Assembly (NCBI GenBank): GCA_963971285.1
Contig: OZ020261.1
Span: forward strand, 124,001 to 188,000
Direction of reading: 5' to 3'
From: Astropecten irregularis
Taxonomy: Eukaryota > Echinodermata > Asteroidea > Paxillosida > Astropectinidae
DNA: 64,000 bases
Positions within the stretch are counted from its first letter, which is position 1; every line of letters starts with the position of its first letter. Shown here in pieces: positions 6,273-58,074 of the stretch. The position numbers were made by a program, and so were the translations under genes. The notes below the pieces were generated by a model, which was not told where the DNA came from, did no database searches, and saw only the letters and a list, made by a program, of their open reading frames with translations.

Positions 6273-7826
6273 ATGAAGAAATGGATGAAATCATCCCTTC
6301 CTTTCATCACACTACCTATCTATATTCTCATCGGGTCTCTCGTTTTTGTTTACCTGGAAGGGCCCAACTCAAAACAAGAGGTCCACGCGATAGCCGCGGC
6401 TATTAGACAATTCCGAAGCAATCACAGCGAATGTGGAGTCACTGATGAAGTGATGGTATCATTGTTGGGAAGCATTGATACGGCCCGGCAGCAAGCTGCT
6501 TTCTGGACAAATGCTAATCCGGAGAGTTCATTAAAGCAGTTATGGTCCTTGGAGAATGCTTTTGTTTTCTGCTACTGTATTGTCACAACAATAGGTGAGT
6601 ATTTTTACCTTTAAAGAGCAACGTGAACTGTTGTTACTTTTTAAAAAGTTAACGCACAGAAATTGACTGGAGCGGAATTCGAGGCAGAGACATCAAGAAT
6701 ACCGTACCAGCGCTATTACCAACTGAGTTATCCAGCGTTATGATGGTGGTGTCCCTAATAGGCAATTATATTTGTTCGTTTGAAGGCCAGAATCCATGAA
6801 ACCACTAGTGGATGGCCGTGGCCTAGTGGTCTGGCGTGTAGAACTCAAAGTTTTGTGGTCACAGGTGGGTTCAAAACCAGCCATGGGCTAGTGGTGCTTG
6901 CGTCCTTGGGCAAGACACAAGGTAACTTGGGTACCTGTGAGGGTAGAGATGGCTTTGCGATTTGATAAGCCTTTGGTGCGCTTTACAGTAGCCGGTGCCG
7001 TATACTCCCCCAGGGAGTTGAGATGGTTTCAGGAATGTAAATTATGGCACAATGACCAGGGATGACAATATAAGCGCTATGTCTTTGGACAGATGTGAGC
7101 GCGGAATATATTCAGAATTATCATTATTATTATTACCATCATATACCGCTGTCTGCTAATTTCTTTGCTGCAGGATTTGGATGGTTTGCTCCACGTACAT
7201 TCGGAGGGCAGATCTTCAGTGTGCTCTTTGCTATCCCTGGCATTCCCCTGTATGCATACATGGTTGTCGTCATTGGTAGCGCATGCCAAATCATTTGGGA
7301 AAAGTGCGTGTTGCTGTTCAACAAGGGAGCTAAAGCCGTCAAGTCCAGGACAGCACGTCGTATCCTGTTTGCGTTGGTGACAGTAATGGTACTGTGGGTA
7401 TTCTTAATGGGGATCCCTGCTTCTATCTTCGCCCTGATGGAAAACTGGTCTTTTGTGAAAGCACAGTATTTCTGCTTTATAACATTCAGCACCATAGGTT
7501 TTGGTGACATAAGCCCTACCAGCCGTTACACTCTAGCCGGAAGCTTATACCAAATTGGAATCACTGTATTGTTTTTCCTTTGCATGGCTATATTGTCAAT
7601 AACCTTCACAGGAATACGCACGGCTTACCTCCGTACTGTTAGGCAACTGGAAAATCATAAATCACGAAAGTATACCATCAAGGATGATAACATGTACTCC
7701 CTGGATGCTAGCATTGAAATGGGTGGTGCAGAAGATTATGATGGATGCTCAGAACCCAAGCTAAGATGTGTATCAAGTATTAATGAATCATCTCCGAGCT
7801 CAGATTCAACTATAACTACAACATAA
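6273..7826 (+). CDS. Two-pore-domain (K2P) potassium channel, 324 aa, two exons
   Basis: Background K+ leak channel of the plasma membrane. Exons 6273-6594 and 7174-7826, with donor GTGAGT and acceptor TTTGCTGCAG. The first in-frame ATG is at 6273; the longer frame upstream begins only at a TTG. Order: M1 (residues about 8-27), long extracellular cap loop, pore loop 1 with filter TIGFG (from residue 106), M2, M3, pore loop 2 with TIGFGD (214-219), M4, then a Ser/Thr/Asp-rich cytosolic tail. The intron interrupts the first glycine codon of filter 1 in phase 1, a position conserved in K2P genes. Filter 1 has Phe where most K2P channels have Tyr; THIK-type channels also have Phe there, but subfamily cannot be assigned by eye. 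Length is normal to slightly short, so an upstream exon is possible but not needed. The intron contains two SINEs. Confidence 0.9.
6655..6790 (-). mobile_element. tRNA-derived SINE, family 1, copy b (degenerate)
   Basis: Diverged copy of the family-1 head and 5' flank, in reverse orientation within the K2P intron. The B-box region is damaged (GAATTCGAGGC), but the A-box side and the flank ending near TTTGTTCGTTTG are still recognisable. Confidence 0.65.
6811..7138 (+). mobile_element. tRNA-derived SINE, family 2, copy a, in K2P intron
   Basis: tRNA-like head with A box TGGCCTAGTGG and B box GGTTCAAAACC. A body follows that includes CTTGGGCAAGACAC, GTACCTGTGAGGGTAGAGAT and GGGAGTTGAGATGGTTTCAG, ending in an AAGCGCTAT-like motif and an ATT-rich microsatellite tail. 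A second copy with the same order lies in reverse at 46180-46475. Its 3' end is only about 35 bp from the K2P exon 2 acceptor. Confidence 0.8.
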
Positions 7827-13720: not shown

Positions 13721-14360
13721 TGGATTACGAGTTACAACCAGTACAAGTAATGAGACTTTGGCAGAGGCTCTACATTTGTACAATTCATTGCTGACTGATG
13801 ATTCTTACTTCATGACTGATGACAGCTTATCAGAAAGGCAGGCTTTAAGGAACGTGCACCCCAAGTCTACCTTGCTCTTGTCCATAGTTCATGTACTTCA
13901 AGCTTCTTGGAGATAACTGCGGGACTAAAGAAATAGTTAGAAAAAAGCGCAGACCAGCTCTACTATCCCTGTTGAAGGACATGGTCTACTCTGAAACCAT
14001 TGACAAGCTAGAGAAGAATTACGAGCAAGCTGTCAATGACATGAATGATGTGGTTCTTCAGAGTTACTTGGGGGTTGCTGCCCACTTGAAGGACATCTAC
14101 CAACGCAGAACCTTCTGGGCAGTTTGCCATCGTGAAGGCATGAATGTTCAAGGAAATAATACCAAAATTTTTTCGAGGCTTCAAAGACAATTCCGAAGAA
14201 CCACATATTTCAGAGAACGAAAGCAAACAATGTCATCCAGCTAGTGGACTTGTTAGTCGCATGTCTCGAGGCCTATTATGAGAGATGCCTGCTGGACATT
14301 CAACAACAGGCTAGATAGAGCCATGCAATCACGATTCCTGCCTCACCACTCACTTGGATC
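13720..14360 (+). pseudogene. MULE/SWIM-type transposase fragment, second copy, 5' of hAT insertion
   Basis: Readable protein pieces: TLAEALHLYNSLLTDD and FMTDDSLSERQALRNVHPK (13755-13865), TLLLSIVHVLQASW (about 13872-13912), then one open stretch 13915-14165 with CGTKEIVRKKRRPALLSLLK, ETIDKLEKNYEQAV, LKDIYQRRTFWAVCHREGM and QGNNT. After a frameshift follows NNVIQLVDLLVACLEAYYE (14226-14283). This is the usual MULE domain order, with DD motif, LLL-FHVLQA-WRWL, WA--YRE and RGNNTNN. A hAT transposon interrupts it at 14360/24452 and its downstream continuation lies at 24460-24565. Dead through frameshifts and insertions. Confidence 0.75.
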
Positions 14361-15111
14361 CATGGGCGTCAATCGGTGGGGGACGGGGGGGGGGGACGTG
14401 TCCCCCCCATGATTTTTTCAGGGGGGGACACAATATCAAATGTCCCCCCCATGTTTTTGTCAGAGCTTCGACTGTTCTTCGAACAGCACGCTGGGCTTTT
14501 CTGCGTTTTCTGTGACGAGGTGATGCCATTGCATTTTTGTTTTAACAATCCTTTCACCCGACATTAGTTCGTGTCCGTTGTTTTGACGTAATTACCGAAA
14601 TAAAGTGAAAAATCTAAAAAATTCCATTGTCTCATTAATATTCATAAGATGACGTCTTTGTAAAATGAGGGCAAATTTGGGATACAACCTTTCCCTACTG
14701 AGATACAGGCCAACATAGGACGTGCACATAACCTATGGGCCGCGGAAGTAAACAATGACACAGCAAAATTGCTGCACGTGCGAATGGTGGTTTCTCCGAT
14801 TGCGGACCAGGCGAGGAAAAATCGTGTACAAAACCTATGGGGACGATCCGTCCGGCGAAGAAATTTTGCCAGCACAGCCGACGTCCCTTATAGACTTGAT
14901 TCGGGTCGTGAGAAAGACGACGGAATGTCATACACACACTAGTGCATATCACTGCATATGGCGACCAACAAAAGCGACTTGAAATAGCGTGTATTAGACT
15001 TTGCCATACTGCCACGGTTGCCAAACCTTCCCAGAATTCCTATGTTATCATATTGTTTTGAGCTAAAATGCTAGTTGCACCAGATGAGCACATTTTTCAA
15101 GAATCAAGATC

Positions 15112-18100
15112 ATGGAGATGCCTGTTAGAAAAGTGGCAACTGTAAGTTAAAATGTCTGAAGTTCACTTGATAAGTGTTAATGTAAAATTGTACAAAGTTA
15201 AATGATCCTGTAGAAGGGTTTGCATTTGTGGCGTTATTGAAATAGAGTAACGTTAACTTAGGTGTCCACTCAGACTCAGTCATGACATGGATCTAATGCG
15301 TACCGTATATAAAGTTTACAAGAGAAAATTTCTCCCATTAAAAAACACGTGCGTGCGTGTTTTTACATTGACTTGATGACTGGTGTCCTAAACCAAGAAA
15401 TAGCCACGTTTGTCAAAATTTTGATATGAATTTCACAACTTGTTTATGCCTTCAATAACTGTCATTTTGTGACTGTCGTTTGATGATATATGATTTAAAG
15501 TAGGCCTACGGTATAAGTAAAGTACATGTATAACCAACGTGCAAGAATCTGAGCTAACCTAGATCTAGGCCTAGGCTAACTTACTAAAAATTAGGCCTAA
15601 CGTTTAATAGCCCTAGCCCTAGCCCTAGGCCTAATAAGCTGGCTCTGGGTTTTAAACTTCGTCGGGCCTAAAGGATAAAGCCAAGGACTGTCCATGCACC
15701 TATGCTAGACTCAGATTTCTAACCTTCATTAACTCAAGGCTATAGCTTCATATTCTCTCAGTACTTGAATGAAAGTGTAGTGTAACGACTTAGGGGGAGG
15801 GGTATACAGAGGCCATATGAACCATCTCGAATGAAGAAAATCGAAGAGCAAATCTATTGCTTAGATTAGTGAAAGTCTATCACCTGCACCTTATTATGTT
15901 TTTTTTTTCTTAAATTGAAGCCCAAAATATTCCATCAGCCTTTTTGTATCCATGAGATTAAAATTCCGACCCCCCCCCCCATGAGCAACTAGTCATAGGC
16001 CTATCAAGTGCCTCAATTGCACTCAATTAGCAAAAAAATTCAGAGCCAGTTCATTGTTCCTACTGTTGGAGGCCATGCTGAAGACAAGTATAGTAATTCT
16101 ATATCTACTCTAGATCTTCTCTAGATCCAGTATTCTATATGAGTATTAATAATAGTGAACTTTCTCTTTACATGACAGAAGCTCCCTTCAAAGCGACATC
16201 AACCTCACCATCAGGTTTCGCAATCTAATGAAAGGACAGCATCAGAAACTGGTAAGTGCAAACCCCCTTTAAATCAGCCCCCCCCCCCCCCCAAAAAAAA
16301 ATCAAATAAATAAATAAATAAATAAATAAAAATAAAGTAAAGAGGGATGGTGAACTTAGACCACAGTTAAGTTTTTTTTTTTTAAATGTCATAACTTTAA
16401 AAGTATAAGGGCCTATTTCATGAAACTTGGACAAAAGGTTATTCAAGTATTACTGATAATTTTGCATGAGTTGCAGGTCACATCATTTTGGGTTAATGAA
16501 CTTTAACCATCAAAGTCAGCACTGCTACTATATTGAATTGCGTAATGCAGGCGAGACTGCCAGAGGCGTTCCACTTGTTACTTTATTTATGTCTTTTTAA
16601 AAAATCTGAAACTTTTAACTGCTACTAATTCAAGACTGCTAATTGTTTTCTCACAAAAAAGATTAATTTAGAAAATTCAAATCGAGAGGATGAAGTACTT
16701 ATGATTTTGTGTTTTCTTTGAAAGTTATGAAGATAACACTAAATCGAAATATACAATAATAATATGGACTAGGATAATCCTGTGCATATTTTAAATCTTA
16801 AAAATCTGAAGATTATCTGTTGTAACTCATTTTCCTAATTTTATATAATTTATATTCAGAAAGTGATTACGCACGACTGATGTCAAATGCTAAAAGATGT
16901 CATCTGAAGTTTAGGGCAGATGTACGCGGTGATGGGAATTGTTATTTCAGGGCATTAGCTGATCAGCTCAAAAGAATCGGGGCAGCAGCTTCAACTCACA
17001 GACAGCTCCGCAGCATGATTTGTGATTACATGCAAATAGAGGTTAGAACATTGGCTGAAATATATTGATTGGTTTGTTGCTAAGTTATATCTCATTTATA
17101 TTTCTAATGCACGAGAAAGAAAGAGAAAACATGATCCTGTTATATAAAAAAAATGCAGATCAGTTATCTCATAATTATACTGTAATTCTACTTTCATCTT
17201 TGGTTCTCTCTCTTTTTGTGCACTTAGCTAGAGTACTATATTTTGAGGGGGGGGGGTATTTGTTTCCCAACAATGGCATTCAAGAAACAATTTGATTCAA
17301 TTCAATTCAAAATAACATTTATTTTCTTCCAATTCTTTATACATGAATTATATAAATAAATTTCCCAGTTGTTGCAACTGTAGTAAATTCAACAGTTCTT
17401 TGTTTAATTATTATTTTTGATTAAATGCTAGCATGCTGATTGCTGCAAATTTGTATATTCGTATAAATAAATTCAATAATCTTCACAATTTGATGGAGTT
17501 TTCTCTGTCACATTTGTACCAAAGCAGCAAACAAGGGACTATAATGTTTAATTAACACCTATAGAATAATTACCAGCATCAACTGTGCAATAATTAGAAA
17601 CAAGTTCCAAAGAAAGTGAAAGATCAATTATTGTTATCCCCTCTTAATTTATTCAGCATACATAGAGATAAAGCAGATGCTTAATAACATAAAATAAGTG
17701 TGCCATCAAAATTAGGTGCTATTAACCATCATGCTCTTAACTTAGAAAATCAGATAAACAAAATTCTAATTCCTTTGTCAAAGAATTGTTAGATAAATGA
17801 TGGGATTTTTTTGTGTGTCATTTTACAGACCCCTTGTGACCAGAGAGTTATAGTGACAGATGAGTACATCAAAAGAATGAGACAGGTTTGTTCTTGGGCA
17901 GGGCAGCCAGAAATACTCGCAACTGGAAAGGTGTTTGATGTCAATATAAAAGTTGTCACAAGCGCTGCAGAAAGCACTGCTTGTGGGTTCTTCATGCATG
18001 AATTTGACAATGTTGGTGCAAAGGATACCCTTTACTTTGGTCATATACATGAGAGCCACTACATAAGTCTGGGTAGGTTAACACAAAATCATGATATAGC

Positions 18101-19624
18101 CATCGTATAACTAATACTTAGGCACAGTAGTCTAAACTGCCAGAATGGACAGATGATCTTTAAAAAATGTATTATTTATTTATTTATCTATTTCTTTTTC
18201 CTTCATTCATTCGTTGTTCAAGGGGGGAAGGAGCAAGTTTTTTTCTCATTCTTTTTAAAGCTCAACCCAAGGAAAGATCTCAAAGGAGTAAGGTTCAATT
18301 AATCCTAATACCTAGGATGAGTGTGGAAGGATTAATGCCCAATTGTGATGCACACTCCAATAACAGGTCATCAGAAAAGGTCTTAGGCTGCTGCAGTGCA
18401 CATTAGTATGGAACAAACTATGACTTTGAAATATGCAACCTCACTTTCACTTTTGTGAGGTCACATAAAGTATTCTATACTACCTTAGTTTCACATCCAA
18501 ATTGAAACATGTCTCTTTTTTTTTTAATTTAATTAATCATTCTTTTAAAATGGCAATCTTTAAGACTCATGTGTAGTCAGTACCTTTCCTTGTGCACCTC
18601 AAAAATAAGTTGTAGATAAAAGGAGCCATAACAACACTCATTTCTCTTGGCATTATTATAGATGTCCCTGAATCTCAACAGGGCGGCCCCCGAATGTCAT
18701 GTCTTCTGGTGGCCTATGGGCTTACTATCCATTTTCCTCTGTTTATGGTGAACAAGTGTAATTTTGCAATATCAAGACTGTGGATTTAAATACATTCAAG
18801 TTTTTGGTGAAGAATACAGTACCAATTATCTTAAATGAATATAATTTGACTTAATTAATTTAGAATTAGTGCTTTCAGTAATATCTCTATCTGTGATATT
18901 TGTACAGAACCAGACCTGAGCCATGCTGATGCATCGGACAGTAATCAAACGGCAAATACAACGGAAACAGGTTAGTATAATACATCAAATTTTTTATCTC
19001 AGTATAATACATATTATGAATTAAAGCTATGAATAAAAAAAAACCCTGTATTTGTTAAAAATCAACAACTATAGCAAAAACTTTATATAGGAAGAAAATA
19101 ATATTTAGAATAATCAACACTGTTGATCAGGAAGAAATACCACCCTCAGAATAACTCTAAATGTGACATGAAATTGGAATTTGGTAATTTGGGCCTGTTT
19201 TCATTGTAGGGTGTCAATCGGTCTTAAATTTCTCATGATGGAAAACAGCATTAAGAACTTTACGTATGTGTCATCTACTTAAATATTATTGCAATAAATA
19301 GAACTACAAACGTCTGAGAAATTTCATACAATTAAAGTTGATTCATAATATTGGTGTGTGAAGTTCATTTTGTCAGTAATAATTAAAATGACAGAACCTA
19401 GGTTATGTGCTGATTGTACATTGCAGGACCTTAAAGAATTCTGAGTGTTGGAAAGTGTGTTTTGAAGGATGTTGATGTATGTGCAGAGTTGATTGTTGCA
19501 TAAATAAAGTTTGCGAATGTGTACCTTAAACAGTAATATTTTTCTCCCGATATTCAGTTCCTGCTCAAAATACAGTCCCTAGAAAGAAGAGAAGGCAAGA
19601 AACACTTCATTCTTTTTTTGCAAG
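15112..19624 (+). CDS. OTU-type cysteine protease domain, 5' exons of the hAT-borne fusion gene
   Basis: Six short exons with GT-AG borders and matching phases: 15112-15141 (ATG at 15112), 16179-16251, 16860-17041, 17829-18072, 18908-18970 and 19558-19624. Exon 3 holds RADVRGDGNCYFRALADQL, the OTU catalytic motif, with Asp59 and Cys62 of the predicted protein. Exon 4 ends DTLYFGHIHESHYISLG, with catalytic-type His172 in the HY motif. OTU enzymes cleave ubiquitin from proteins, so if active this would be a deubiquitinase. Exon 6 encodes a basic patch and the ETLHSFF motif often found at the N-terminus of TTF-finger hAT transposases, and it splices in frame (phase 2) to the transposase exon at 20962. 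The frame is open across all six exons. The alternative of a separate host gene is disfavoured because the TIRs enclose everything. Confidence 0.75.
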
Positions 19625-19655
19625 GTATGTACTAATAATTATCATTCATAACAGA

Positions 19656-20035
19656 TGATATCATTGCTGGGCTGATAAAACCTTGTATGTTACCCAAAAA
19701 AAAATCGGCAGAGTGAAAATAATTCTTATTTTAACAAACTGCATGGGCTATGTTATTTTTACTCTTATATGTTTGATTCGTAAATCATTATGAAGTGACT
19801 TGAATGCACCCCCCCAAAAAAAAATGGAAGGCAGGAAATTGAGATACAGGGTTTGTGCACTAGGCCAAAGTTAATTTTAAAAAAATATGAGGAGTTTGAA
19901 GAGATGAATATATACTCTCATTTGATTATCAGGAGACCAATGGCACCTCACACTTGACATTTATAAAAAAAAAAGAAGAAGCAATATTCACCACAATGCG
20001 AGATGCAAAGTTTTATCAGCCCAGCAATGATATCA
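19656..20035. mobile_element. 380-bp TIR element nested in an intron of the hAT gene
   Basis: Ends are perfect inverted repeats of 26 bp (outer part TGATATCATTGCTGGGCTG). It lies in the intron between the fusion gene's exons 6 and 7 (19625-20961). No ORF; target duplication not clear. A MITE of undetermined superfamily. Confidence 0.75.
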
Positions 20036-20961
20036 CCAAGACTTCTCAACATATTGAGACCAAATTAAGGGTCTAATGACATAAGGGAATCAGACATTTC
20101 ACTTTGACATAGTTCATCCTATCCTAATTTTGTAATTCCCAAGAGAGCTGTCACTTATACATTTTTTATTGTTGTAAAATAGGGTCTATTGTGAAGAACT
20201 GACCATTCTAAAATTCATATTTTTAATCATATTTTCTGAGTTCATTCAATGCTCAGTGCTAATGTCAAGGGGGGATATTTTTCTTATGGCAGGCAGGATC
20301 AACTGTAACATTTTTTTTATTATTATTATTCCATTTTAGATCATGGTTTGCATGCACTTTTTGCTCACCTGTCTAATAAGCTCAAGTGAGCCTTCCTTTA
20401 AATCACAAGATTTTTGCAATCTTAATTTACTCCCCCAAAACACCTGGCTATATCATAAACAAATTTGACATGAATTATTCTTATGCAGTGAGAAACGAAA
20501 TAATAGGGACCCATCTTGAAAAGGAGGCTTGGAAATTCCCTGGTGACAAATCCTTTTTTTTTCTGAGTCTTGCAGGCAAACATGCCTAACATGAGTAAAC
20601 TTCATTGTCAAGGATATCCAGAAATGGGAGAAAATGGGGTAATCGCCCCCCCCCCCCCATGAAATGAATGGATTTTAGTTCATAAATTATCTCATAACAT
20701 TATTGCTGGATTTTGACCAAACATTGAAAAAATATAGAAGTACATGATGGGGACTTTTGGGATTGTTATCGTAACCATGGCATATTTTTTTCCCTTGTTA
20801 GTGGTTGACATCATATATGATGACACTTGTAGCAGGCTACTCATGTTACCGCTCTAGTATGGCAGACTTTTTATTTATCTAGGTTTATTTTTACAAATAA
20901 AAACATTTATAACAGATTTCATAAATACTTATTAAAATGTCAATTTCTTTAACCTCTGCAG

Positions 20962-23671
20962 GCAACCAGGTGACCACAGTCCATCACCGAGCCCAGCAGT
21001 TTCAACACTGACTCCATCATCCAGCTTTCCTATCTCAAGAGCTGATGCAACTATCTCACCCATTTCAACGGCTGATGCAAATAGCTCACCCATTTCAACG
21101 GCTGATGCAACCATCTCACCCATTTCAATGGCTGATGCAACCATCTCACCCATTTCAACGGCTGATGCAACCATCTCACCCATTTCAACGGCTGATGCAA
21201 CCATCTCACCCATTTCAACAGCTGACGCAACTAGCTCACCACTATCAACAGCCGATCTTTCTGCTAGGTCTCCAGTTGTCACTGCTGTACCAACGTATAG
21301 GTCCCGTGTCTCAACTCTGACCTCTGATGCAACTAACTCTCCAATCTAAACGGCTGATGCAATTAGCTCACCAATCTCCACAGCTGACACACCTACTGCA
21401 TGTACATCACAAGTTGTCACTGATGCAGCATTGTCTTTCTCCCCTGCATTGATACCCCAACCTGAATCCCACGTTTCAACAGCATCTTCACCATGCAGCT
21501 TCCTGGACTTGGAGCCTGTTTCAGATCCTGCTGTACCTTCCTGCCCTCGGGCCTCACGGGATGTCTTAATTCCTTTTCCAGAGAAGCCCAATCAACCTAA
21601 AGATGTTTCGTGCTTGCCATTGCAGATTTTGGGTAATAAAAAGCTAAGGTTTCAGTATGCTTGGTTCTCTCAATTCCCTTGGTTACATTTTGATGCTAAT
21701 GTGGATGGAATTTTGTGCTACACCTGTTCTAAGGCATCAAAGGAAAAACTGATGGCAATGGCAAAATACAAAGACGATGCTTTTGTCTCAAATGGATTCC
21801 AAAACTGGAAGAAGGCGATTCAGAAATTTCGCAGCCATGAAGTTTCCAATGCTCACCATATTTCATCAAGTAACCTAATCGCCCTCACTAAGACTAATAT
21901 AAAGGTCCAGCTCAATAAGAGATTTCAAGAAGAGCAGCAAGTAGCACAGAGAGCCCTGATACAGATTATTTCAGCACTACATTATCTAGCTCACCAGGGA
22001 CTAGCTTTGCGTGGTAAGGAAGATAGAGAGGGCAACTTCAGGCTTCTCCTAAACTTACTTGCATCAAATGACCAAAGTCTGAAAAACTGGCTGGAGAGAA
22101 AGACCACTTTTACAAGTGGTTCATGTCAAAATGAGGTGCTACAATTAATGTCCCACAGATTGTTGAGAGATATTTGCGAGGAGGTTAATGCATCAAAGTA
22201 CTTCGGTATTATTATTGATGGGACTCAGGATTGTGTCGGTAAGGAACAGGAGTCCATATGCGTTCGTTACGTGACAAACACATTTGATATCAAGGAAGAA
22301 TTCCTGGGACTCTATGAGATACCAAATACAACTGGGGTTTCACTCTGTAACATGCTGCAAGACGTATTGACAAGACTGCAATTGCCAATCAAGAATCTAC
22401 GAGCACAGACATATGATGGGGCAAGTAACATGTTGGGAAAGTATCAGGGATGCCAGGCACACGTTAAACACATTCAACCACTGGCAAGTTACACACACTG
22501 TGGAGCCCACGTTTCCCATCTGATCATGTCTAAAGCTGTACAGGCTGCTCCATTTGTAAGAGATGCCCTTGACCATCTCCAAGAGTTGGGGAACATCTAC
22601 AAGAAATCTGGCAAATTTAAACATCTCTATCTGAATTTGCATGCAGAAGATGAACATTCCTCATCAAGAAAGCTGAAGCCCATCTGCCCTACAAGATGGC
22701 TCACACGTTGTGCTTCCGTAGTTGCCTTGTTGAATAACTATGAAGATGTTTTAGAAGCACTGATGATAGCATCCCGTGACTTTGGGACAGAATTCTCTTC
22801 ACGAGCAAATGGGATAAAGAAATGCATCTCTTCAGGAAAATGTGTCCTCGGCCTAGTTGCAGCCCTGCCAATCTTGCAATGCCTGGAGAAGTTCAACAGA
22901 TGTTTGCAAAGTTCCACTACTACCATTTCAGGAATGCTTGCCTCAGCTGACATTGTTAAGAGTGAACTCCAACAACTTCGCTCTGATGAAAGCTTCAGCA
23001 GGCTATTTGAAGATGCAAATTCAAAGATTAAGAAGTGGAACGTTGATTCTCTAACTGCAAGATCAACAAGAATCCCAGCGAGGTATAATGATGGGTCCCA
23101 GCAATATGTTTCAAGTTCCATCGAGGAAACGTATCGCACTGATTTTTTCAAGGTTATTGACAGCGCCCTTTCTAGTCTGAGAACATACTTCAGTACCACA
23201 GATCTCCAAGAGCAGAACAAGTTGGCATCAATGCTTTTATCTGGTTCCTTCCACAAAGACCTTGTGGAAAAGTATCCCGAGCTAGAGGATGCACATACAC
23301 TTGAGCCAGAGTTAGCCTTCTTCCGGCATCAATTTAGCTGTTCATCTCTTGAAGAATACAGAATTCTCTTCAAAAACATGGTGCCAGACGTAAGGAGAAT
23401 GTTCCCCCAAGTTGAACGACTACTACGACTTTTGTTAATATCACCCGCCAGTTCATGTGAGGCAGAAAGATCTTTCAGTGCTCTGAGGCGGGTGAAAACT
23501 TGGTTGAGGAACACAATGAAGCAAGACAGATTGAACCATCTGATGGTTTGTCATGTGCATCGTGACAAGTTAGCTGAAATAAATTTACATGATATAGCAG
23601 TATCATTTGCTCGCAATTGTGAATCAAGGAGGCACATTTTTGGTAGGATGAGATATACCTATGAAATTTAA
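20962..23671 (+). CDS. hAT transposase (last exon of the OTU-hAT fusion), one nonsense codon
   Basis: Large last exon, in frame with the OTU exons; the whole spliced CDS is 3369 nt (1123 codons including stop). It begins with a 10-residue Ala/Ser/Thr/Pro repeat region, then a TTF-type zinc finger (FSQFPWLHFDANVDGILCYT, Cys at LCYTC, His near FRSHEVSNAHH), a DUF4371-like core, and the hAT C-terminal dimerisation region (SSCEAERSFSALRRVKTWLR). Candidate catalytic acids: Asp in IIIDGT at 22217-22219, Asp in TYDGASNML at 22415-22417, and Glu in CEAERSF at about 23459-23467. The only lesion seen is TAA at 21347-21349 (codon 349), in a repeat where sister units have TCA at that position. Codons from 21350 on remain open for 773 residues. 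The first ATG after the stop lies inside the zinc-finger region, so internal initiation would not restore the protein. Confidence 0.85.
21030..21255 (+). repeat. 30-bp coding minisatellite in the hAT transposase exon
   Basis: About seven tandem 30-bp units, each encoding ADATISPIST with small variations. Because 30 is a multiple of 3, the frame is kept. Two further diverged units at about 21326-21385 contain the nonsense codon. The region forms a low-complexity linker between the basic N-terminal segment and the TTF finger. Confidence 0.9.
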
Positions 23672-24459
23672 CGAAGTAAAGAGTGCTAAATAATATGGCT
23701 CCATTCATGGGTACCCCAAGTAAAAAAAATGTATGCACCCCTTCAAGGGCAAGTCCACTCCAACAAAAGTTAATTTGAAGAAAGAGAGAGAGAGACAGAG
23801 AAAAACAAAACAAGAATAAAACTGAAAATTTCCTCAAAATTGGATGTAAAATAAGAAGTTTTGGTATGTTCAAAAATTTCATTTTCATAAAACAGTTATA
23901 TGCATAACAAGGGTGAAATGCAAATGAGACAGTGGATGATGTCACACACTCACTATTTCCTTTGTATTTTATTACATACGGTATATACTATTTCAATATT
24001 TGCAATTTTGAAAATAACAAAGCTCTTTATTTTCGACATGTTCAGGGACAAATCAAACCCTGTTTAAAAACAGAATAAAGAAAAATTATGATATTTCACA
24101 TTTCTTTTGTTGTCTGTTTTCAGTATTTAATAGATATGTTAATAAAGCTTCTTAACATTCTTGTTGAAAGCATGATAAAGGCATCCTTTCATATAGTTTT
24201 CATATAATCAAAGGTCAAATTGAAGGAAACAAAGTCAGAAAGAGGTAATTGTGTGTTGGTGGGTGGGTGTGTGTGTGTGGTGGGATAGAGAGAGCTAGAG
24301 AGAGGGGGGGGTACGTGGAGAGAGGGAGAAAGAAGACGGGCTTCAGCAATACGTCATGGTATTAACTTTGAAAGTATACCTATAAAAGTGACATGCTTGC
24401 ATGTTGCTATTGTGTCCCCCCCCCATGCTCAAGTTTGGATTGACGCCCATGCTTGGATC

Positions 24460-54064: not shown

Positions 54065-57000
54065 TAGTCTTGATCCAAGACCGATATTACCGTTTGTCCC
54101 ACTCCGACAGCACCGATATAATCAACGAACTCGCTGGCCTGCTGCCACTGGTACCTGTGCCGCCGCTGGTACGCGTGCATGCTGTGAACGAATATCGGTC
54201 TTGATTCAAACCTCACGACCCGTGAAATTCCGAGGACATTCCAAGCATACCTCAAATACCTGCTTTCTATGCACTAGCGCGCTGTGACGTATGAGTGTTA
54301 TATGAATGAATGCGTCTGGTAACTAGTGTTCTTGTAATGTTGTAATTGTGAAGTATAATGCTATGCCTATGCAGTGTAACGTAATTTCATTCTCTCTTGT
54401 GCTATGGTTGTATCTGATTTCCTAACATTTGCCGCCCAAAAATTGAATAGAATTCTCAGTTTTAAATTGAGAATTTGGGGCTCAAGTTGTCTAACCTCCT
54501 CGTGGTGAGCCCTGGTAACTGTGCCAACAGCTTCCTGTTGACTCAGGCGAATGACAGCACTAGAGATTACTACTGCTACTACTGCTACTACTGCTACTAC
54601 TGCTACTACTACTGCTACTACCTCCAAGTAAAGATGACCTCTCGACAGATGCAGTCTGGCCTTACCCCTTCCCCGGAACACGTGCCCTCCTCAGGGCAGG
54701 CACCAGCTGGTGTCACGCCGGATGGGATATCAGTCCTGCAACTGAATGTAGAAGGTATCACGAAGTCCAAGATTTCAGTAATTGAACACCTCCTTCAGTC
54801 ACAACAATTCACTGTCATCCTCCTTCAGGAGACTCACTCCAAAGAAGCCTCCAAGCTGAAGATCCCTGGTTATGTCCTAGCAGCCCACACAAAGAGTGAT
54901 GTCCATGGCATTGCATCCTTTGTGAGACACTCCACCCAATGGCGAGAGCTTGGTACATCTGCTCCTGATTCGAGCCTGGAATGGGCAGCCACTGAGGTGG
55001 AAGGCGTCACCATTGTTAATATCTACAAACCACCTCCTTTTCGGCTCCAACCTGACTCAATCCCAGTCTTTACCAGTCCGTGCATCTATGCCGGTGATTT
55101 CAACTGCCGAAGTACAACCTGGGGCTACTCTTCATCGAACCCAGATGGTGATACTCTCGAAGACTGGGCATCGGCCTCTGGTATGCACCTCCTTCACGAT
55201 CCCAAGCAGCCAGATAGCTTTCATTCTGGCCGCTGGAACACAACGTCCAACCCAGACCTAGCATTTGTCAACTTAGACGGTCCAGTACCCTCCCGCATCA
55301 TCCTGGACCACTTCCCCAGATCACAACACAGGCCCTCACTGATCATCTCGGAAAGTCCAATCACATCAATCCCTTCCAAGCCAGTGAAGAGGTGGAACTT
55401 CCGCAAGGCCAACTGGACCCAGTTCGAAAGTCTTGTGGATTCAGGTGTTGACGATCTTCCCCCCTCCTCAACTGCCAACCTGGACCAAGCATACTCTTCT
55501 TTCTGCAACCTCCTTATCAGTGCAGCAAAAGCCACCATCTCTCGCGGCTTCCGCAAGCGCTACATCCCACTTTGGGACGATGAGTGCTCTACCCACTACC
55601 AAGACTTCCTCCACACCCAACCTGGTGACGAAGATGCAGCTTCCAAGGCATCAGCACTGACTGACTGTTTAGACAGGAAACGCCGAGAACGCTGGGAGGA
55701 GACTGTACAAGGTATTGATTTCTCCCACTCCAGTAGGCGAGCCTGGAGAACTTTCAATCGTCTCACAGGCAGAAGCGCAAAATCCACACGATGCCCTGTG
55801 TCTGCGAATGCCATTGCAAAACAACTCTTGGAGAACGGGAAGTTCAAAGAAGCCAGCAAGGAGCATGCACGCCATGTTAAACAAGAAACATCCGCCCTGT
55901 GGCAAGCCCCTGGAGTCGACGGTTTCCTCTCTACTCCCTTCACCATCCAAGAGCTTACGCTAGCCGTCCGCCAACTCAAGAGTGGAAAGGCCCAGGGACC
56001 AGACAACATCCCTCCAGAGTTTCTTATCCACTGCGGCCCAAGATGTCTTGAATGGCTTAGGGAATTTTACTCCAAATGTCTCTCAAACACGACCGTACCC
56101 AAGATCTGGCGCAAGGCAACAGTCATCGCGATACCCAAACCCAAAAAGCCAACTGACGACCCGAAGAATTATCGTCCAATCTCGCTCCTTTGTGTCCCGT
56201 TCAAGCTCCTGGAAAGACTTCTCCTAGTTCGATTGGAACCTATCATCGATCCACAGCTGCCTAACGAGCAAGCTGGCTTCCGTCGTGGTAGGAGTACTGT
56301 CCATCAGATCGTCAACCTTACTGATGACATCGAGGAAGCTTTCGAAAAGGGCCTCAAGGCAGGCGTGATATTGGTGGACCTCACAGCCGCATACGACACG
56401 GTATGGCATCAGGGTCTTACCTTGAAGCTACTACGGACCATCCCTGACCGTCACTTTGTGCGGTTCATCTGTACTATCATCTCTAACCGCAGCTTCACAC
56501 TCAAGACAAGCGACGGGCAGGTCAGCCGTCTGCGCCGACTCAAAAATGGGGTCCCCCAGGGCTCAGTTTTGGCTCCGACACTCTTTAACATCTATCTCAG
56601 CGATCTTCCCCCAACCTCATCAACCAAGTACGCATATGCAGACGACCTTGCACTCCTGTATTCTGGTAGAAGCTGGACGACGGTTGAGAATACACTCTCA
56701 ACTGACATGGATGCCCTCGCTAAGTACCTGAGGACTTGGAGATTAAAGCTGAGCTCTGCAAAAACAACCGCGACGCCTTTCACCCTGAACACAAAGGAAG
56801 CTCACCGACAGCTTACAGTCAAGCTGGATGGCTCAACACTGCCGTGCAACCCCACCCCGACTTACCTTGGGGTGAAGATGGACAGACAACTCACCTTCAG
56901 ACAGCACATCGAGGCACTGCGTGGCAAAGTGGCGTCAAGGAATAACCTCCTACTTCGTCTCGCTGGCTCAACCCGGGGAGCTTACACAAGCACTCTCCGA

Positions 57001-58074
57001 ACAGGCGCCCTTGCACTAGTCTACAGCGCTGCAGAATATGCTGCCCCAGCATGGTGTAGGAGCACCCATGTCAAAAAACTGGATGTTACTCTCAACGACA
57101 CCATGAGAATAGTCAATGGCTGCCTACGACCAACCCCAGTGAAATACCTCCCTGTCCTCTCGGGAATTGCTCCACCTGCACTTCGCAGAGAACACCACAC
57201 GGCCATGTTGGTTAAGAAGGCTCTTCTAGACACCTCCCACCTTCTACATGCTCGCATTACAACCGCCCAAAACCTCGGCCACCAACGCCTTCGCTCTCGT
57301 CGACCTTTCAGCCGTCATGCGAAATCCCTAGCAATCTCCAACTTCAACCTAATGGAGCAATGGAAGCATGACTGGCAAGAGACGACAAAGCCTGCACAGC
57401 TCACCATCCCTCCCAGCACACACATCCCACCAGGAGCTGACCTCCCTCGTAGAGAGTGGGTCACCCTGAACCGCCTCCGCACTGGAGTAGGTCGTTTTGG
57501 TGCCAGCATGTACCGATGGGGCCTCAGCCCCTCAGCAGCCTGTCAGTGCGGTGCTCCTGAGCAGACGGCGGACCACATCCTGTCAGAATGCACCAGGCTC
57601 GGACCACCTATGGGATCCCACACTAACCTGACCAACCCATGCCCAGCAACTGTGGAATGGTTGCGGCACCTTCGTGAAGTAGTATAGTATAGTATGGCAG
57701 CAGGTCTCATACGCAAGAAGAAGTTTTAAATTTATCAGTCGACTGCTATGAAATTGGCCCCAACCACGGTGCTCTATGACTTGTTATGTATATTATGTGT
57801 ATTACGCATCGACCATCGTGTGACCAGACTGTATGAAAAACAATCTGCACTATTGCGCTTGCGTGATTATTCAAGATCGATCGAATTTAAATATATACGT
57901 ATTCATAGCCTCATACCATGCTTCAAGACTGGCATATTGGATCAAAGTGGCAAGCATACCAGCGGCGGCACAGGTACCAGTGGCTGCAGGTCATCGAGAT
58001 CGTTGCATTATAGCCCCCTCTATAGGTGTTATCGGACCGGGACAAACGATAATGCCAGTCTTGGATCAAGACTA
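54065..58074. mobile_element. 4010-bp long-TIR element (Mutator-like) with 9-bp target duplication
   Basis: Left end TAGTCTTGATCCAAGAC and right end GTCTTGGATCAAGACTA are inverted repeats. Similarity of the two ends extends inward for about 150 bp (shared GCCACTGGTACCTGTGCCGC). It is flanked by CGTCACAGC at 54056-54064 and 58075-58083, a perfect 9-bp duplication of module X sequence that is single in sister copies. A 9-bp duplication with long TIRs is characteristic of Mutator-like elements. The interior carries a complete LINE ORF and no recognisable Mutator transposase. Confidence 0.9.
54634..57687 (+). CDS. Non-LTR retrotransposon endonuclease/reverse transcriptase, 1017 aa, intact ORF
   Basis: ATG at 54634; the frame is also open upstream through a Tyr/Cys-coding TAC-TGC microsatellite, but without an ATG. 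N-terminal APE-type endonuclease: SVLQLNVEGI, LLQETHSKE, YAGDFNCRSTTWGY, PDLAFVN and an SQHRPSL terminus-type motif. Central RT: NYRPISLLCVPFKLLERLL, NEQAGFRRGRSTVHQI, LVDLTAAYDTVWHQGL, NGVPQGSVLAPTLFNIYLSD and catalytic YADDLALLY. C-terminus: a Cys-rich CQCGAPEQTADHILSECTRL knuckle. Such proteins nick DNA and copy their RNA at the nick. The full set of catalytic motifs with no stop or frameshift suggests recent activity. The style is I/Jockey-like, clade unproven. No separate ORF1 is visible. The ORF lies inside the 4-kb TIR element, probably a nested insertion. Confidence 0.92.
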   Translation: MTSRQMQSGLTPSPEHVPSSGQAPAGVTPDGISVLQLNVEGITKSKISVIEHLLQSQQFTVILLQETHSKEASKLKIPGYVLAAHTKSDVHGIASFVRHSTQWRELGTSAPDSSLEWAATEVEGVTIVNIYKPPPFRLQPDSIPVFTSPCIYAGDFNCRSTTWGYSSSNPDGDTLEDWASASGMHLLHDPKQPDSFHSGRWNTTSNPDLAFVNLDGPVPSRIILDHFPRSQHRPSLIISESPITSIPSKPVKRWNFRKANWTQFESLVDSGVDDLPPSSTANLDQAYSSFCNLLISAAKATISRGFRKRYIPLWDDECSTHYQDFLHTQPGDEDAASKASALTDCLDRKRRERWEETVQGIDFSHSSRRAWRTFNRLTGRSAKSTRCPVSANAIAKQLLENGKFKEASKEHARHVKQETSALWQAPGVDGFLSTPFTIQELTLAVRQLKSGKAQGPDNIPPEFLIHCGPRCLEWLREFYSKCLSNTTVPKIWRKATVIAIPKPKKPTDDPKNYRPISLLCVPFKLLERLLLVRLEPIIDPQLPNEQAGFRRGRSTVHQIVNLTDDIEEAFEKGLKAGVILVDLTAAYDTVWHQGLTLKLLRTIPDRHFVRFICTIISNRSFTLKTSDGQVSRLRRLKNGVPQGSVLAPTLFNIYLSDLPPTSSTKYAYADDLALLYSGRSWTTVENTLSTDMDALAKYLRTWRLKLSSAKTTATPFTLNTKEAHRQLTVKLDGSTLPCNPTPTYLGVKMDRQLTFRQHIEALRGKVASRNNLLLRLAGSTRGAYTSTLRTGALALVYSAAEYAAPAWCRSTHVKKLDVTLNDTMRIVNGCLRPTPVKYLPVLSGIAPPALRREHHTAMLVKKALLDTSHLLHARITTAQNLGHQRLRSRRPFSRHAKSLAISNFNLMEQWKHDWQETTKPAQLTIPPSTHIPPGADLPRREWVTLNRLRTGVGRFGASMYRWGLSPSAACQCGAPEQTADHILSECTRLGPPMGSHTNLTNPCPATVEWLRHLREVV

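Follow-up and report, generated by a model that had tools for sequence, protein, structure and literature searches.

OTU domains, which are ubiquitin-protease-like, have been published for two groups of transposons, Ginger1 (Bao et al. 2010, PMC2836005) and Helentrons (PMC4067079). The relevant sections of PMC9741609 report deubiquitinase activity in members of the VTD family and a solved Helitron VTD, and state that transposon OTU domains were previously untested. Transposases may also carry a PCNA-interacting peptide (PIP) box with the consensus Qxx[I/L/M]xxF[F/Y], for which the cited passage of PMC5371812 names pogo and, as a putative case, maize Ac. Here, we describe a hAT element at positions 14361–24451 of a 64,000-nucleotide stretch of the echinoderm Astropecten irregularis (GCA_963971285.1, contig OZ020261.1, positions 124,001 to 188,000 of the forward strand; referred to as the window), which is probably a degraded copy of an autonomous DUF4371 (ZMYM1-like) hAT with an OTU module spliced before the usual transposase N-terminus.

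Like this element, Ginger1 is a DNA transposon with an OTU (or Ulp1) protease domain on its transposase, but the transposase of Ginger1 is Gypsy-integrase-like with a C-terminal OTU or Ulp1 domain (PMC2836005, in the sections concerned), whereas that of the window is of the DUF4371/hAT type with an N-terminal OTU, which places it outside Ginger1. Helentrons and Helitrons with an OTU or VTD domain (PMC4067079 and PMC9741609, again in the relevant sections) resemble it in encoding cysteine proteases of the ubiquitin-cutting type. Helentrons are rolling-circle elements with a Rep/helicase, in contrast to the window element, which has terminal inverted repeats (TIRs), a target-site duplication (TSD) and no open reading frame (ORF) of at least 200 amino acids other than the transposase, and which is thus not a Helentron. 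Neither Helentrons nor Helitrons are known to have hAT-type TIRs or TSDs. With hATs of the DUF4371 or zinc finger MYM-type protein 1-like branch the element shares the 8-bp TSD, short TIRs, DUF4371 core and C-terminal dimerisation region, as well as a Hermes-like fold in a relative, and what sets it apart is the OTU module encoded ahead of the usual N-terminus; 114 of the 120 listed relatives show no OTU in the ORF given. Transposases with a PIP box (pogo, and putatively maize Ac, in the passage of PMC5371812) have the motif Qxx[ILM]xxF[FY] in common with QETLHSFF of the window, where the putative PIP motif is, unlike theirs, joined to an OTU module. Among the papers listed by searches of open-licence PubMed Central, the long result lists being covered in part, none deals with an OTU-hAT transposon, and a family entry may exist in Repbase or Dfam. 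Deubiquitinase-type domains recur across unrelated transposons (Ginger1, Helentrons), and hAT would be the third superfamily.

The stretch 14361–24451 is a real hAT element. A perfect 14-bp inverted repeat (CATGGGCGTCAATC) at 14361–14374 has its exact inverse at 24438–24451, and both ends are flanked by the 8-bp TSD CTTGGATC; the chance expectation of such pairs is about 7e-5 (for 64 kb, separations of up to 20 kb and assumed equal base frequencies). Pfam detects DUF4371 (E 5.4e-23) and Dimer_Tnp_hAT (E 7.7e-9) in 21350–23668, both above their cut-offs, and the 8-bp TSD, the short TIRs (14 bp exact), these two domains and a Hermes-like RNase H fold in a relative together place the element among the hATs. 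Candidate DDE residues are Asp at 22217–22219, Asp at 22415–22417 and Glu at 23465–23467, which correspond to invariant alignment columns (D290, D356 and E706 in alignment A2) that we take to be catalytic. No second copy of the element is present within the 64-kb window.

Upstream of the transposase lies a chain of predicted exons, in which the OTU and hAT coding parts are on one strand with compatible splice phases; all six introns are GT-AG and the seven exons total 3369 nucleotides. A preliminary description of this DNA had given the same TIRs and TSD, the same exons with their splice sites and phases, OTU catalytic DGNC and HY motifs and a hAT core with dimerisation domain, all of which hold on re-examination, and had read the exons as one 1122-codon protein. 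A single intact protein of this length is ruled out by an in-frame TAA at codon 349 (21347–21349), present in addition to the final stop, and the claim is wrong as modelled for this copy, unless splicing skips the stop. Two open stretches result: an OTU part of 348 codons and, counted stop to stop, a transposase ORF of 773 codons, with the TAA between them in a 30-bp minisatellite of a linker rich in serine, threonine and proline (S/T/P). The chain from exon 3 to exon 6 is supported because P0122, a protein of the sea cucumber Apostichopus japonicus, carries the OTU, the EPD that starts exon 5, KQSTIHSFF (RQETLHSFF in the window) and an S/T/P tail. The features of the element, in which P0001 denotes a second protein of this species, are as follows:

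14353–14360, no strand: left TSD, CTTGGATC (sequence)
14361–14374, plus strand: left TIR (sequence)
15112–15141, plus strand: exon 1, with an ATG that has A at -3 and G at +4 (predicted)
16179–16251, plus strand: exon 2, ending in phase 1 (predicted)
16860–17041, plus strand: exon 3, coding for the first OTU half, with the DGNC Cys codon at 16940–16942 (Pfam OTU; 65% identity to P0122)
17829–18072, plus strand: exon 4, coding for the second OTU half, with the HY His codon at 18057–18059 (Pfam OTU; 58% identity to P0122)
18908–18970, plus strand: exon 5, 63 nucleotides, phase 1-1, the initial EPD of which extends the match to P0122 and P0001 (sequence comparison)
19558–19624, plus strand: exon 6, basic stretch and PIP-box-like QETLHSFF at 19596–19619 (QSTIHSFF in P0122; consensus from the cited passage of PMC5371812)
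20962–23671, plus strand: exon 7 as in the preliminary description, S/T/P-rich linker followed by the transposase (exon chain)
21041–21387, plus strand: 30-bp minisatellite encoding part of the linker, arrays 21041–21240 and 21324–21387 (repeat analysis)
21347–21349, plus strand: in-frame TAA stop (translation of the chain)
21350–23671, plus strand: hAT transposase ORF of 773 codons, with DUF4371 and a dimerisation region at the C-terminus (ORF and Pfam)
21582–23671, plus strand: alternative exon 7, its acceptor in frame with exons 2, 4 and 5, bypassing the stop (predicted)
23815–23820, plus strand: AATAAA, possible polyadenylation signal (sequence)
24438–24451, minus strand: right TIR (sequence)
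24452–24459, no strand: right TSD, CTTGGATC (sequence)

In the transposase ORF, no Met occurs before residue 135, which lies downstream of the zinc-finger C..C, and a complete transposase therefore needs a start from upstream exons. Exons 3 and 4 form a symmetric phase 1-1 cassette of 426 nucleotides, and exon 5 is likewise phase 1-1. In a rough splice model based on consensus frequencies, the acceptor at 21582 ranks fourth of 619 AGs; the acceptors before 16860 (rank 94) and 18908 (rank 58) are weak, and sequence matching both of these exons is present in P0122. Stop-free products predicted via 21582 are 893 amino acids long with exons 1–5, 872 with exons 1–4 and 730 with exons 1–2, the last without the OTU, compared with 348 by the route of the preliminary description.

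The first 245 residues of the chain match the Pfam OTU family (PF02338) with an E-value of 1.9e-15 and 58 bits, against a cut-off of 23.3. OTUD-type deubiquitinases (OTUD1, OTUD3, OTUD5 and yeast Otu2) provide the nearest solved sequences and folds: OTUD1, Otu2 and OTUD3 are closest in a comparison with the single sequence, and OTUD5, OTUD3, OTUD1 and Otu2 with a profile. A model of P0122, the OTU of which is 58% identical and stands in for that of the window, has the OTU fold. Of the residues expected in an active deubiquitinase, the Cys (Cys62) and the His (His172) are in place, and an Asn or Asp directly after HY is missing.

Searches with the OTU part returned P0001 as the sole relative at E <= 10 among 476 candidate proteins of about 617–1963 amino acids, and, from 229 candidates of about 178–565 amino acids, the two proteins P0122 and P0123 at E <= 0.01. 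The motif region of the window and P0122 aligns over 15 residues, 7 of them identical (E 2.9e-4 for that pair). The best-scoring relative of the transposase, P0002, is also from Apostichopus japonicus, and the records of P0122 and P0002 both give the same longest contig of 27,981,011 bp. Both parts have diverged equally from the window, the OTU being 57.9% identical to that of P0122 and the hAT part 59.9% identical to P0002.

Relatives of the transposase number 282 proteins at E <= 1e-5, and the best 120 of these 282 were scanned. Of the 120, 97 list no ncbi source and were taken as single-ORF predictions from metagenome contigs, which is why missing upstream exons in relatives say little. A profile built from four OTUs (the window, P0122, P0001 and P0123, with P0005 excluded) was run on the 120 relatives and the three OTU proteins, with matches counted at E <= 0.0025, and it matched five of the listed relatives; the best of 123 reversed decoys reached 0.26. 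The cleanest fusion is P0005, a single ORF of 962 amino acids from a cluster of 16 member sequences, in which a divergent OTU, matched from the DGNC region to HY, precedes the hAT part, while P0062, P0110, P0060 and P0064 have an N-terminal match to the second half of the OTU only, again ahead of the hAT. In the Pfam search, P0060 reaches 1e-4 (23.2 bits, cut-off 23.3) and P0062 0.11. A sixth protein, P0121, which reads GDGRCFFR close to its N-terminus and GHF where HY is expected, matches only weakly, at 0.0065, when P0005 is included in the profile (best decoy 0.34). The OTU of P0005 is 23% identical to that of the window and its hAT part 52%, figures that we read as pointing to separate capture or replacement rather than to one inheritance. 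An OTU-hAT association appears to be conserved in at least one named relative, with a true one-ORF fusion in another. As to the fusion proposed in the preliminary description, the layout of P0122, the single ORF of P0005 (962 codons, the arrangement that had been suggested as worth looking for) and the four ORFs with an OTU half speak for it, and the long frame that should carry it in this copy is stopped.

Four further relatives (P0056, P0057, P0059 and P0082) have other, cysteine-rich N-terminal extensions ahead of the hAT, for example MPGCTDEVWAACSVGTCLTLLCYEHF, which suggests that varied N-terminal modules have been gained by this hAT branch. Three scans of IMG/VR viral contigs gave no confirmed relatives and phage records no match to P0005. 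Of 143 stretches matched in contigs of prokaryote genomes, a single one held up, a hAT fragment with 25% identity from a contig listed as that of a mussel symbiont. We regard it as host DNA, and the profiles give no OTU match to it.

The motif QETLHSFF fits Qxx[ILM]xxF[FY] and occupies the position taken in hAT-only relatives by the N-terminus, which carries MDIRKFF, QANILDFF or the like. Motif counts were made on 48 of the 120 relatives, the other 72 lacking a finger anchor or 60 residues before it. A relaxed form, [ILMV]..[FY][FY], occurs within the first 20 residues in 10 of the 48 (shuffled sequences: mean 1.2, at most 4), and the form containing Q in one. A PIP box as a general trait of hATs was rejected, the Q form being too rare at one of 48 in the first 20 residues and two of 48 upstream of the finger.

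Several observations weigh against a degraded OTU-hAT fusion with an active protease. The chain is closed by the TAA at codon 349, and P0122 stops in its own S/T/P tail, the sea cucumber OTU and transposase being annotated as two proteins, which may be two products. The contig figure shared by P0122 and P0002 is only suggestive of a link between that OTU and that transposase. Any OTU is found in only six of the 120 listed relatives (282 found), P0121 weakly, and the positive rows are scattered, seven of them (window and P0121 included) needing seven changes on a 93-row transposase tree of the window and 92 relatives, from which proteins below 600 amino acids were left out; this tree lends no support to a single common origin of the OTU in the clade. 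For P0005, the Pfam OTU match (1.7e-4; 22.5 bits) is just below the cut-off of 23.3, and the OTU part did not fold, with block values of the predicted local distance difference test of 23–33 (residues 41–80), 43–53 (81–100) and 24–32 (101–200); the full model was dropped as structural support. For P0064, P0110 and P0121, Pfam reports no OTU up to E 10. The strict PIP box is rare, with two of 48 relatives having it upstream of the finger, one of them with a Val outside the published I/L/M. Finally, the residue after HY, which we take to be the third residue of the OTU triad, is Ile in the window, compared with Asn in OTUD5 (HYN) and Asp in OTUD3 (HYD), and Val or Ile is found there in seven of the eight proteins matched by the OTU profile (P0001, P0005, P0060, P0062, P0064, P0110 and P0122). 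The eighth, P0123, has HYN; it consists of an OTU protein on its own and is not known to be linked to any hAT.

This replacement of the Asn or Asp of OTUD-type enzymes, together with DGKC instead of DGNC in P0122, is the basis of the strongest alternative, in which the module binds ubiquitin without cleaving it and tethers ubiquitinated proteins rather than acting as a protease. We regard it as a serious, if tentative, possibility, against which it counts that the Cys and His are retained in the window, P0122, P0001 and P0005 and that other acids can complete an OTU triad, as in A20. Rather unlikely, in our view, is that one element makes two products: a small protein of OTU, PIP-like motif and linker (348 amino acids, ending at 21347) that acts in trans, with the TAA as its normal end instead of a lesion, and a transposase from another splice form or start. 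The chain of the window stops in the linker just as P0122 ends in its S/T/P tail, and the OTU-skipping form of 730 amino acids is in frame; P0005, however, is a single ORF across OTU, linker and hAT, four more ORFs run from an OTU half into the hAT, and the transposase ORF has no Met ahead of the zinc-finger C..C. That the OTU exons are a chance neighbour with no joint product (a captured or nested piece of a host OTU gene or of another OTU-bearing transposon) is very improbable, since OTU, PIP-like motif and S/T/P stretch follow one another in P0122 as they do here, OTU and hAT are equally diverged, the phases are consistent, the P0005 fusion is uninterrupted, no other ORF of at least 200 amino acids lies inside the element and the top inverted-repeat pair (33 nucleotides, intron 6; best 25 of 109 pairs) does not enclose the OTU exons, even though other transposons carry OTU genes (Ginger1, PMC2836005, and Helentrons, PMC4067079, in the sections concerned) and OTU-bearing relatives are scattered on the tree.

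If an autonomous hAT with a spliced OTU module has decayed to give this copy, inclusion or skipping of the OTU exons as a phase 1-1 cassette would yield a transposase with or without the module, and a junction of exon 5 with 21582 would leave the TAA out. If it works as such, the PIP-like motif would recruit the longer form to PCNA, a clamp under ubiquitin regulation. More tentatively, the OTU might deubiquitinate the transposase itself, or else proteins of chromatin or repair at the ends of the transposon, and such removal of ubiquitin might stabilise the transposition complex; cleavage and its purpose we infer, with one catalytic residue against them. A broader scheme, which we consider speculative and improbable as a whole, is that hATs captured OTU modules repeatedly (with the type of the window and the sea cucumber and that of P0005 as the minimum), that a splice-controlled, PCNA-tethered deubiquitinase protects the transposition complex at replication forks against removal that depends on ubiquitin, and that this strategy of DNA transposons was reached separately in Ginger1, Helentrons and hATs. 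A Hermes-like, biochemically tractable cut-and-paste transposase would allow ubiquitin cleavage to be tested directly in transposition.

P0001 (Apostichopus japonicus, 642 amino acids) has the same OTU and linker start, 71% identical to P0122, and continues into an unrelated sequence which, judged by eye, seems to span the membrane. A host gene may have captured the OTU exons of a transposon here, or the gene model is a chimera. An OTU-bearing hAT superfamily would also make OTU exons carried by transposons a source of new host genes, of which P0001 looks like an example.

Intron 6 contains a 33-nucleotide, 94% inverted repeat (19656–19688 and 20003–20035, 314 nucleotides apart), perhaps a small nested element. 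Elsewhere in the window, a 1073-codon ORF at 54466–57687 on the plus strand encodes an endonuclease and a reverse transcriptase (RVT_1 1.8e-33) and looks like the intact ORF of a retrotransposon without long terminal repeats, and several related repeat copies, up to 93–98% identical and in direct as well as inverted orientation, occupy about 40000–64000. Two regions on the plus strand, 1751–2542 and 7074–7826, hold SRCR/EGF exon(s) and part of an ion channel (Ion_trans_2 7e-15, in two stretches).
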